Assembly: GCF_008386315.1 (NCBI RefSeq)
Contig: NZ_CP043808.1
Span: 2,356,001 to 2,420,000 of the forward strand
Source: Serinicoccus marinus DSM 15273
GTDB taxonomy: Bacteria > Actinomycetota > Actinomycetes > Actinomycetales > Dermatophilaceae
Length of the DNA stretch: 64,000 nucleotides
Direction of reading: 5' to 3'
Below the pieces are notes generated by a model. That model was not told where the DNA came from, did not search any database, and saw only the letters and a list, made by a program, of their open reading frames with translations. A program made the translations under genes and the position numbers. This document shows, piece after piece, positions 165-64,000 of this stretch (the stretch's first letter is position 1; every line of letters starts with the position of its first letter).

Positions 165-1189
165 GCGGGCGCTACGACCACCTCGACGAGTCCTCCGTCC
201 GGGTGCGCCCCTCCCGCAAGGGGTCGCGCCCGCGGACCAAGGACCGCCCGGCCCACGAGGACGCCGTCGTGGGGGTCGTCACCACCGTCGACCGGGGGCG
301 CTACACCACCCGCGTCCAGGACCGCACCGTCGTCGCCATGCGCGCTCGCGAGCTCGGCCGCAGCCGCATCGTCGTCGGCGACCGGGTGGGCATGGTCGGG
401 GACACCACCGGCCGACCGGACACGCTGGCCCGGATCGTGCGGGTCGAGGACCGGCGCACCGTGCTCCGCCGGAGCGCGGACGACACGGACGCGGTGGAGC
501 GGGTCATCGTCGCCAACGCCGACCAGCTCGTCATCGTCACCGCCCTGGCCGATCCGGCGCCCCGCGAGCGCATGGTCGACCGCTGCCTGGTCGCGGCCTA
601 CGACGCCGGGCTCGAGCCGCTGCTGCTCCTCACCAAGGCCGACCTGGCGGACCCGGCCGACTTCCTGCGCCACTACACCGCGCTCGACGTGCCCTCGGTG
701 GTGACCGGCAGCTCCGGCACGGGCGAGGTTCGTGCCCTCGAGCCGGATGCCGTGGGCCGCGTCCGGTCACTCCTCCAGGACCGCACAAGCGTCCTCGTGG
801 GTCATTCGGGCGTGGGCAAGTCCACGCTCGTCAACGCGCTGGTGCCGGACGCCCTGCGCGCGACGGGCGAGGTCAACGCTGTCACCGGCCGCGGTCGGCA
901 TACCTCGACCTCGGCGATCGCCCTGGAGCTGCCGGGGGGCGGCTGGGTCGTGGACACCCCCGGGGTCCGGTCCTTCGGGCTGGGACACGTCGACCCGGGC
1001 ACCTTCGTCGAGCACTTCGACGACCTCGCCGGAGGGACCGCCGGGTGCCCGCGCGGGTGCAGCCACGACGAACCGGACTGCGCTCTCGACGCGTGGGTGG
1101 ACGAGGGCCACGCCGGCCCGGCGGGGGCCGCGCGCCTGGAGTCGCTGCGACGGCTGCTGCGCAGCCGCGGCGGCGATGAGCACGGCTGA
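161..1189 (+). CDS. rsgA: ribosome small subunit-dependent GTPase A
   Basis: A late 30S-assembly GTPase of 342 residues. It shows the circularly permuted order typical of RsgA/YjeQ: an OB-fold N-terminal half, then the G4 motif TKAD at about 158-161, followed by the G1 P-loop GHSGVGKST at about 214-222 and G3 DTPGVRSFG near 265. The C-terminal zinc knuckle is visible as GCPRGCSHDEPDCAL. It starts at GTG 161 overlapping the aroA stop, so it is probably translated in an aroA-rsgA-hisN unit. The basic first 30 residues are normal for actinobacterial members. Length and motifs are complete. Confidence 0.97.
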   Translation: MSGRYDHLDESSVRVRPSRKGSRPRTKDRPAHEDAVVGVVTTVDRGRYTTRVQDRTVVAMRARELGRSRIVVGDRVGMVGDTTGRPDTLARIVRVEDRRTVLRRSADDTDAVERVIVANADQLVIVTALADPAPRERMVDRCLVAAYDAGLEPLLLLTKADLADPADFLRHYTALDVPSVVTGSSGTGEVRALEPDAVGRVRSLLQDRTSVLVGHSGVGKSTLVNALVPDALRATGEVNAVTGRGRHTSTSAIALELPGGGWVVDTPGVRSFGLGHVDPGTFVEHFDDLAGGTAGCPRGCSHDEPDCALDAWVDEGHAGPAGAARLESLRRLLRSRGGDEHG

Positions 1190-1216
1190 GCGCTGACCAG
1201 CGGCTACGGTGAGCGG

Positions 1217-2041
1217 GTGCCTGGATACGACGACGACCTGAGACTCGCCCACGTCCTCGCCGACGCGGTGGAGCGCACCTCGCTCGACCTCTTCGGCTCG
1301 TGGGAGGACGAGGTCGAGGTCGGCCCGGACGGATCGCTGCGCACACCGGCCGCGGCTCGCCTGGAGGAGCTGCTGCGGCACCAGCTGCAGCGCACGCGGC
1401 CGCGGGACCGGGTGGAGGGCCGCATGCTCGAGGCGACCGGTCACGGTGCGCGACGTTGGGTGATCGACCCGATCGACGGCGCCGCCAACTACGTCCGGGG
1501 CGTGCCGGTGTGGGCCACGCTCATCAGCCTGGTGGTGGAGGACCAGCCGGTGCTCGGCCTGGTGGCCGCACCGATGCTCTCCCGACGGTGGTGGGCCGGC
1601 GTCGGGTCCGGCGCCTGGACCGGCCGCACGCTGGCGCGGGCCCGGCGCATCGCCGTCTCCGAAACCCGCGTGCTGGGTCACGCCTCGCTGTCCGCGGACG
1701 ACGTCGCGGGCTGGGTCCACGGGCCGCACGGACCTGGCTTCGCGGCCCTGACCGACCGGGTGTGGCGCACCCGCGCCTTCGGGGACTTCTGGAGCCACGC
1801 CCTGGTCGCCGAGGGCGCGGCGGACGTCGCGCTCGCGGCCTGGGCCGACCCGGTGCAGCTCGCGACGCTCGCCCCGCTGCTGCGCGAGGCCGGCGGGACG
1901 GTGACCGACCCGGAGGGCGCCCCCGCAGCCCTCCCGCTCGGGCCAGGCAGCACCGGTCACCCCGTCGTCGCCTCGAACGGGCACCTCCACGAGGAGGTCC
2001 TCACCACGCTGTCCGTCGGCGCAGAGCCGGTTCAGGGATGA
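1217..2041 (+). CDS. hisN: histidinol-phosphatase, inositol monophosphatase family
   Basis: 274 residues with the IMPase-fold metal motif WVIDPIDGAANYVRG at about 77-91. This is the DPIDG signature, with Ala-Ala replacing the usual Thr-x. The C-terminal ADPVQLATLAPLLREAGG matches the substrate/metal loop of the family. HisN removes phosphate from L-histidinol phosphate in histidine synthesis. The assignment to HisN over a general inositol phosphatase rests on the 'RGVPVWATLI' variant and on the aroA-rsgA-hisN order. The GTG start is supported by TACGGT at 1205-1210, which ends six bases upstream and implies a leaderless transcript. Its 3' end overlaps the convergent M16 gene by 10 bp. Confidence 0.88.
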   Translation: MPGYDDDLRLAHVLADAVERTSLDLFGSWEDEVEVGPDGSLRTPAAARLEELLRHQLQRTRPRDRVEGRMLEATGHGARRWVIDPIDGAANYVRGVPVWATLISLVVEDQPVLGLVAAPMLSRRWWAGVGSGAWTGRTLARARRIAVSETRVLGHASLSADDVAGWVHGPHGPGFAALTDRVWRTRAFGDFWSHALVAEGAADVALAAWADPVQLATLAPLLREAGGTVTDPEGAPAALPLGPGSTGHPVVASNGHLHEEVLTTLSVGAEPVQG

Positions 2042-62310: not shown

Positions 62311-62400
62311 GGGTCCTGCGACGAGTGGCTCCAGTCTACCGCCGCCGCGCCCGTAGACTCAGGCCCTGAACGTCCCGACCGCACCTGACCAGGGAGAGGC

Positions 62401-64000
62401 ATGTCCACGATCATCTACACCCGCACCGACGAGGCCCCGCTGTTGGCGACGTACTCGCTCAAGCCGATCATCGAGGCCTTCGCCGGGGCGGCGGGGATCG
62501 AGGTGGAGACGCGTGACATCTCGCTCGCCGGTCGCATCCTGGCGCAGTTCGCCGACCGGCTGCCGGCGGACCAGCAGGTGGGCGACGCCCTCGCCGAGCT
62601 GGGCGAGCTGGCCACCACCCCGGACGCCAACATCATCAAGCTGCCCAACATCTCCGCCTCGGTGCCGCAGCTCAAGGCGGCCGTCGCCGAGCTCCAGGCC
62701 CAGGGTTACGACCTGCCCGACTACCCCGAGTCGCCCAGCACCGACGAGGAGCGCGACGCCCGCGCACGTTACGACAGGGTCAAGGGCTCGGCCGTCAACC
62801 CGGTGCTGCGCGAGGGCAACTCCGACCGCCGCGCCCCCGAGGCGGTCAAGATGTATGCCCGCGCCTACCCGCACCCCATGGGGGCCTGGAGCAGCGACTC
62901 GCGCACCCGCGTCGCCACGATGGAGGCCGGCGACTTCCGCCACAACGAGGACTCGGTGGTCCTCGACGCCGAGGACACCCTGAGCATCCGGCACGTGGCC
63001 GGCGACGGCACGACGACGGTCCTCAAGGAGTCGGTGCCGGTGCTCGCCGGCGAGGTCGTCGACGCCACCTTCATGTCGGCCAGCGCGCTCGAGGAGTTTC
63101 TCGCCGCGACCGTCGAGGAGGCTGCCGCCGACGACGTGCTGTGGTCGCTGCACCTCAAGGCCACGATGATGAAGGTCTCGGACCCGATCGTCTTCGGGCA
63201 CGCGGTCCGCGTCTTCTTCGCCGACGTCTTCGACCGCCACGGCGAGGCGCTCGCCGCGGCGGGGCTGTCGCCGAACGACGGGCTGGGCGGCATCCTGTCG
63301 GGCCTGGACGCCCTGGGCGAGCAGGCCGCCGAGGTGCGCGAGGAGATCGAGGCCCGGCTGGCCGAGCTGCCCCGCCTGTCGATGGTCAACTCCCGCAAGG
63401 GCATCACCAACCTGCACGTCCCCAGCGACGTCATCATCGACGCCTCCATGCCGGCGATGATCCGCAACGGGGGCCAGCTGTGGGGGCCCTCCGACGAGAC
63501 GGCCGACACCCTCGCCGTCATCCCCGACTCCTCCTACGCCGGCGTCTACCAGGCGGTCATCGAGGACTGCAAGGAGCACGGGGCCTACGACCCGACGACC
63601 ATGGGCTCGGTGCCCAACGTCGGCCTCATGGCCAAGAAGGCGCAGGAGTACGGCTCGCACGACAAGACCTTCGAGATCCCGTCCGACGGTGCCGTCGAGG
63701 TGGTCGACGGCAGCGGCGAGGTGCTGCTGCGGCACGAGGTGAGCGCCGGTGACATCTGGCGCGCCTGCCAGACCAAGGACGAGCCGATCCGCGACTGGGT
63801 CCGGCTCGCGGTGAGCCGGGCCCGGGCGACCGGGGACCCGGCGGTCTTCTGGCTGGACGAGGAGCGGGCGCACGACCGCAACCTCATCGCCAAGGTCCAG
63901 GCATACCTGGCCGAGGAGGACACCGACGGCCTGGACCTGCGCATCCTCTCCCCCGTGGACGCGACCACCCTGTCGGTGCAGCGCATCCGCGAGGGCAAGA
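62401..64000 (+). CDS. icd: monomeric NADP-dependent isocitrate dehydrogenase, 5' part
   Basis: The first 533 codons of a gene that runs off the window; family members have about 740 residues. The start [20 protein letters not shown], then [40 protein letters not shown] and [18 protein letters not shown], are unmistakable for the monomeric type. It converts isocitrate to 2-oxoglutarate and makes NADPH. A ribosome site (GGGAGAGG) precedes the ATG. TAGACT near 62353 may be the -10 box, giving a leader of about 40 bases. The reading frame is intact to the window edge. Confidence 0.97.

Follow-up and report, generated by a model that had tools for sequence, protein, structure and literature searches.

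The 64,000-nucleotide stretch of the Serinicoccus marinus DSM 15273 chromosome analysed here (contig NZ_CP043808.1, positions 2,356,001 to 2,420,000, hereafter the window) is rich in an octamer, GGTATGCC, read on the opposite strand as GGCATACC, which appears to work most like a DNA uptake sequence, a function that we infer from comparisons of sequence. The word is real, family-specific, very strong and forms dialects. We lean towards the view that the octamer is the form taken in its genus by a family-wide DNA uptake word that would have spread by biased natural transformation. Its copy number, neutrality of orientation, dialects, turnover of sites and scarcity in low-GC DNA match the DNA uptake sequences (DUS) of Neisseriaceae and the uptake signal sequences (USS) of Pasteurellaceae. 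This reading, which was not among the roles named in the original prediction, fits best.

Genomes are coded below as G plus a number, genera as g plus a number and sampled stretches or loci as L plus a number; G000 is the window's own genome, a single contig of 3,420,275 bp in genus g1. The enrichment predicted from the window was borne out genome-wide, with 887 forward and 896 reverse octamers (1,783 copies) in G000, compared with 11 copies (7 + 4) of a control word made by reversing the octamer without complementing it. A sample of 864 kb, consisting of the window and 40 stretches of 20 kb from G000, held 430 octamers where an order-3 Markov model expected 10.3 (42-fold), and each of the 41 sampled chromosome stretches contained some. 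For the codon nulls, genes were called with a simple caller of our own (781 genes, 716,565 bp), and 318 copies lay within them. Synonymous shuffling within genes gave a mean of 29 copies (20 runs, maximum 38; an approximately 11-fold excess), global codon usage gave 15 (10 runs) and a codon-pair null, although its model was trained on sequence containing the motif, gave 58 (10 runs), so that the codon-pair shuffle proposed as a check in the original prediction leaves the excess standing.

Called genes held 168 of the sampled sites in the sense and 144 in the antisense orientation, a further 101 lay beyond called genes and 17 touched gene edges, and all seven position classes (six frames and intergenic) were enriched under a phase-aware Markov null, itself trained on motif-containing sequence. 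The suggestion that the word overrides codon choice in every frame was correct in that all six frames are occupied, but their use is uneven, one sense frame holding 6/312 coding sites and another 121/312. It had also been thought that most of the rare codons lie inside the motif, which holds for about half of the ATA codons (51/99) but only for 124/478 TAT and 41/329 CAT codons. Sites occupy all frames, both strands and intergenic DNA, which supports the earlier proposal to the extent that the signal acts on DNA rather than on codons.

Within the window itself, all 19 octamers (nine GGTATGCC and ten GGCATACC) were found at the positions first reported, compared with 0.56 expected and a maximum of 3 in any of 100 dinucleotide shuffles, and GGTATGCC was the most enriched 8-mer under order-2 and order-3 Markov models (19 versus about 1). 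The sites, together with core-only matches to GTATGCC and the palindromic variant that had been noted at position 99 and was confirmed, are as follows.

897..904, minus strand, GGTATGCC site, antisense within called gene 161-1189
9938..9945, plus strand, GGTATGCC site, antisense within called gene 9883-10311
16694..16701, minus strand, GGTATGCC site, outside called genes
22025..22032, minus strand, GGTATGCC site, sense within called gene 21512-24229 (weak AddB-like match)
28171..28178, plus strand, GGTATGCC site, antisense within called gene 27916-28788
31305..31312, plus strand, GGTATGCC site, outside called genes
31635..31642, plus strand, GGTATGCC site, shortly upstream of the called start of gene 31653-32693
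32860..32867, minus strand, GGTATGCC site, sense within called gene 32737-33201
35257..35264, plus strand, GGTATGCC site whose ATG may serve as a start codon (open reading frame 35251-36408)
38869..38876, plus strand, GGTATGCC site, sense within called gene 38650-39282
42131..42138, minus strand, GGTATGCC site, outside called genes
43994..44001, minus strand, GGTATGCC site, sense within called gene 43526-44251
50636..50643, minus strand, GGTATGCC site, sense within called gene 50240-52159
51219..51226, plus strand, GGTATGCC site, antisense within called gene 50240-52159
52611..52618, minus strand, GGTATGCC site, at the edge of called gene 52211-52615
58839..58846, minus strand, GGTATGCC site, antisense within called gene 57773-58960
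59112..59119, plus strand, GGTATGCC site, sense within called gene 59012-59713
59246..59253, plus strand, GGTATGCC site, sense within called gene 59012-59713
63900..63907, minus strand, GGTATGCC site, antisense within called gene 62401-63999
5993..5999, minus strand, core-only site GTATGCC
8939..8945, minus strand, core-only site GTATGCC
10063..10069, minus strand, core-only site GTATGCC
15782..15788, plus strand, core-only site GTATGCC
35604..35610, plus strand, core-only site GTATGCC
41817..41823, minus strand, core-only site GTATGCC
44809..44815, plus strand, core-only site GTATGCC
62853..62859, plus strand, core-only site GTATGCC
99..106, no strand, palindromic one-off variant GGTATACC (variant enriched, 36 versus 4.6 expected in 864 kb)

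Another pair of words, AGTCGCTG/CAGCGACT, occurred 13 times in the window, with about 2 expected (order-4 Markov).

One-off variants of GGTATGCC showed graded enrichment in the 864 kb sample. Replacing the first base gave variants enriched 7.3-, 5.2- and 13-fold, an A or G in the last position 5.8- and 5.2-fold and an A in place of G6 7.8-fold, while a T in the last position was rarer than expected (2 versus 9.0); changes within TAT reached at most 1.8-fold except T3 to A (9 versus 2.8) and T5 to A (4 versus 1.3). Such grading resembles a binding preference that tolerates less change at the TAT centre. Around the core GTATGCC in G000, G preceded in 73% of cases and the next base was G (60%) or C (28%), together 88%, with A in 3%. 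Neither GGTATGCC nor the longer form GTATGCCGYG is palindromic, and palindromic neighbours are rare in the 864 kb, GGCATGCC falling below expectation (16 versus 34).

The word was followed through a family set of 186 genomes in 53 genera, in which genomes with at least 400 copies of the core were termed rich and those with at most 160 poor, cut-offs of our own choosing. Two broad groups were seen, rich (n = 113; median 1,872 copies, maximum 4,856) and poor (n = 57; median 70), with 16 intermediate genomes, and genera g1, g4 and g33 include rich and poor genomes alike. All 31 genomes of g1 contain the octamer, from 38 copies in G009 to 2,180 in G012. The median ratio of core to reversed control was 5.3 in rich and 1.5 in poor genomes, the control itself being raised in some rich genomes. 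Such raised controls were observed in several rich genomes outside g1 (G105, G130, G039, G071 and others) and probably represent a further dialect difference, with flanks favouring CCGTATGCC. Outside the family, 641 actinobacterial genomes were counted for the octamer GTATGCCG rather than the core, and none gave a count comparable to those of rich family members (up to 3,277): the maximum was 180 (control 195) among 359 genomes of the same order and 386 in 7.5 Mb (control 176) among 293 genomes of the phylum, 11 of which are shared with the order set. The nearest named relatives of a window protein were from Serinicoccus and Ornithinimicrobium species, in a search that may omit the window's own species. 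The word also occurs on L156, a contig from a metagenome-assembled genome labelled Acidobacteria, on which a relative of a window protein (77% identity) is also encoded; the contig is probably mislabelled and Ornithinimicrobium-like.

Flanks of the core vary by genus, with GGTATGCCS in g1 and GTATGCCGYG in several others, where sampled cores were followed by G, then mostly by Y and mostly by G (104/104 in G141, 63/63 in g47 and 21/21 in G151). Alternative words were sought among all octamers present in samples of 20-160 kb from each group. The firm alternative is CGAAGGGG, which turned up in arbitrarily placed stretches of two genomes and in targeted loci of five, its sites falling in every frame as well as in intergenic DNA: it occurred 64 times in 80 kb of g36 (9.6 expected) and 53 times in 140 kb of g27 (12.3 expected), or, per 20 kb, 16 times in G121 and G122, 6 to 12 times in three g27 genomes and 0 to 3 times in the other groups sampled. 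The background of alternative words in 63 loci from other families was 1.6 to 3.9 per 20 kb. With less data, GTACGCCG was found in g35, and the pattern GTACG(C/A)CG describes the word of g35 and, less surely, those of g3 and g6, the samples from these three genera being one homologous locus. Also with less data, GTACGNCG was found in G114 and GGATGCCG in g51, where one 20 kb stretch gave GGATGCCGG. A weak signal for GTAGACCG in G038 (30 versus 8.2) was equalled in density by some named relatives, and searches for own words in G009, g46, g53, g2, g38, g28, g32, g39 and g5 gave none that was convincing among the words listed.

Orientation was examined in relation to the replication origin, which is probably near base 1 of the contig, since the contig opens with a protein taken by eye for DnaA and the cumulative GC skew of the G000 sample turns near 1.75-1.83 Mb. 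The leading-strand orientation was taken by 232/430 octamers (54%, 95% confidence interval 49-59%), with 57% of genes co-directional, and strand totals over 90 near-complete motif-rich genomes were 91,767 and 91,789. As the leading-strand share is no higher than gene orientation accounts for, oriented signals fail by strand; both the FtsK-type motif (FtsK orienting polar sequence, KOPS) and the oriented Chi signal, two roles put forward in the original prediction, were rejected accordingly. Octamer density is patchy along the chromosome (variance-to-mean 2.9). Low-GC DNA is poor in sites: the 20 five-kb bins with less than 69% GC together held 16 (0.8 per bin), versus 2.8 per bin at 71-75% GC, and a 7.1 kb low-GC stretch of L278 held 1 core versus 5.3 expected. 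In so far as low GC is a proxy for foreign origin, recently acquired DNA is poor in words. The consecutive stretches L037, L057, L038, L058 and L039 (G000:C1:1046239-1414984) and the separate L065 contained 1 to 4 octamers per 20 kb, compared with an average of about 10. From G000 to G012, 9/14 sites were retained (44% for composition-matched 8-mers) and from G012 to G000 9/15 (46%), and the remaining genome pairs retained 2/7, 0/2, 0/1, 1/2 and 1/3. Single sites are apparently not strongly guarded while the total is, a pattern that, on these small numbers, points to a drive that keeps making sites.

A mechanism can be proposed in which, in naturally competent ancestors and relatives, a surface DNA receptor would bind GTATGCC with genus-specific flanks, and would probably belong to an Flp/Tad competence pilus. 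DNA bearing the word would enter and recombine more often, and each round would favour alleles with the perfect word, so that molecular drive would build up words genome-wide, whatever their frame or orientation, even as individual sites are gained and lost. Drift in the taste of the receptor would yield genus dialects, and another word in some lineages, and words would fade after loss of competence, for example when mobile elements cut the pilus operon. Competence of any strain of the family, word-specific uptake, a protein reader and transformation as the drive are all inferred. A broader claim, that a whole system of uptake words recognised by Flp/Tad competence pili arose in a single actinobacterial family, that of the Serinicoccus/Ornithinimicrobium group and its relatives, and did so separately from those of Neisseriaceae and Pasteurellaceae, with at least two flank dialects (GGTATGCCS and GTATGCCGYG), the probable relatives GTACGNCG and GGATGCCGG and the unrelated word CGAAGGGG, seems to us evenly balanced between right and wrong.

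The machinery that such uptake would call upon was surveyed across the family. ComEC was found in 180/186 genomes and T2SSE ATPases in 72/72, two of them in G000; 16/40 rich genomes lacked the highest-scoring T2SSE class (taken for type IV pilus/type II secretion system-like) and had Tad-type classes only. The first Tad locus of G000 encodes a TadA-family ATPase over the NCBIfam cut-off, a 67-residue DUF4244 protein and a TadE-family minor pilin. The tad-1 locus encodes a second TadA-like ATPase (below cut-off), TadB, TadC, a short Flp-type pilin, two TadE-like proteins (one under the Pfam cut-off) and a TadG-like protein; no match to the tad-1 TadA was found in the rest of the L278 stretch, despite the two T2SSE ATPases in the genome.

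Several observations weigh against the uptake reading. No gene's presence cleanly follows the word when tad/com gene content is compared between rich and poor genomes, and ComEC and the first Tad locus occur in both alike. The tad-1 minor pilin A2 was missing or weak in 3/90 rich and 14/47 poor genomes, a comparison uncorrected for phylogeny and made with an A2 alignment in which poor genera were also represented. In G178 a strong word occurs without any A2 match, while g46 has intact tad-1 pilin genes, yet at most a weak GGATGCCG signal. Within g1, pilins were without clear extra divergence, of the kind that coevolution with the word would leave, at the change of dialect (ratios 1.01-1.37 for pilins and 1.09-1.41 for TadA/B/C), and the evidence for turnover is based on few sites. 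Finally, the tad-1 locus of G000 has a truncated tadB, next to which lies a stretch of 62% GC that contains a resolvase (L278:12684-20000 = G000:C1:2194684-2202000), and the strain itself may therefore not be competent now; one explanation for its richness in words is a recent break with decay lagging behind.

On a tree built from three pilins, the rich state must change five times or more, and a search for pilin residues separating rich from poor genomes gave no clear answer, being phylogenetically confounded. The tadC gene is interrupted in G114, where its parts are about 37 kb apart and one end has a large serine recombinase, and in G184, where the distance is about 10 kb; in G098 a tadC fragment adjoins a serine recombinase (tadC loci of the three genomes: L263:3531-4886, L147, L265 and L269:6108-7343). 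The gene may be a recurrent integration site. An early lead, that poor genomes are those with a broken tad-1 (G114, G184, G098), was weakened: words of another kind are present in G114 and further poor genomes, and the operon of the rich G000 is broken too.

Among other explanations, the one that survives best, though we consider it unlikely, is a methyltransferase-linked mutational ratchet as proposed for the cyanobacterial highly iterated palindrome HIP1, in which a modification enzyme and strand-directed repair would turn near-misses into the word without selection. Very high iteration, patchiness and change of word between relatives are also known for HIPs, as described in PMC4390886, but HIPs are palindromic whereas the present word is not, and GGTATACC (36 copies) and GGCATGCC are rare. 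PF01555 methylases, the only methylase family tested, do not track the word (11/41 rich and 14/32 poor genomes), and were rejected as its driver; the earlier suggestion of a methylation site finds no support in that family. Deamination of methylated GGCATGCC was likewise rejected, since by our own estimate about 34 expected precursors cannot feed 430 sites.

Still less likely, in our judgement, is a Chi-like recombination signal, for instance for an AdnAB-type nuclease, that would spread through the survival and recombination of imported linear DNA bearing it. The window does encode a UvrD/AddA-like protein and a weak AddB-like match (about 18.4-24.7 kb), all below NCBIfam cut-offs, and Chi words differ between clades. 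Known Chi sites are strand-biased, however, and any replication-strand bias of the octamer is no greater than gene orientation explains; nor does the presence of RecC go with the word (18/41 rich and 20/32 poor genomes), and RecBCD Chi was rejected on that count. A Chi-like role of the window's AdnAB-type proteins is disfavoured.

More doubtful again is the idea that a protein organising or segregating the chromosome binds the word, with selection keeping it at many places. The presence of sites in every sampled stretch would suit it, but the very patchy density, the lack of origin-to-terminus polarity and the turnover of individual sites would not, and close relatives that have all but lost the word (38 copies in G009 versus 2,180 in G012) are hard to square with an essential role. 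An origin of the word as a side effect of codon usage, amino-acid motifs or base composition can be given almost no credence and was rejected, for although its commonest single class is the sense Tyr-Ala frame (121/312 coding sites), the codon nulls gave 15 to 58 copies versus 318, all seven position classes were enriched and core-poor relatives of similar GC are without the word.

To our knowledge, uptake words have so far been reported only from two unrelated Gram-negative families. In the literature searched, which did not cover most subscription journals and preprints, GGTATGCC and GGCATACC were not found as words and no title on uptake sequences together with Actinobacteria or this group claimed such a case; three of six other words tried do occur, in four papers with unrelated titles (titles only). 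If the uptake reading is true, Gram-positive bacteria would gain their first uptake-sequence system. As a third independent case, in a different phylum, envelope and pilus, it would mean that uptake words evolve repeatedly and would allow a fresh test of why they exist, whether for sex with kin, through drive or both; natural transformation would become directly testable in the family, with a simple tag suggested for genetic tools in harmless strains. If the word does not serve uptake, some other strong sequence-specific drive would be at work in 113/186 family genomes.

A close setting for the proposed pilus is Micrococcus luteus, which belongs to the same NCBI order, has ComEC and needs two tad loci for transformation, according to PMC4322843, although the term 'uptake sequence' is absent from both M. 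luteus papers checked. HIP1 and alternate HIPs resemble the word as highly iterated, patchy octamers replaced by other words in relatives, but are palindromic and tied to methyltransferases (PMC4390886), unlike the non-palindromic word described here, which the sole methylase family tested does not track. Like the present word, the USS of Pasteurellaceae are short enriched words whose receptor, long unknown, is now predicted to be a minor pilin, although the sequences are unrelated and PMC12616744 names two USS types, compared with several words in one family here. The DUS of Neisseriaceae, bound by the minor pilin ComP, differ in that word and phylum are unrelated, that the present system belongs to high-GC Gram-positive cells, and that 16/40 rich genomes have Tad-type ATPase classes only. 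Notwithstanding these differences, PMC3630211 describes features shared with the word: some members of the family without an obvious word, 943 to 5,918 copies per genome, several dialects per family and a short non-palindromic word with a strictly needed 3-base core and ends of lesser importance.

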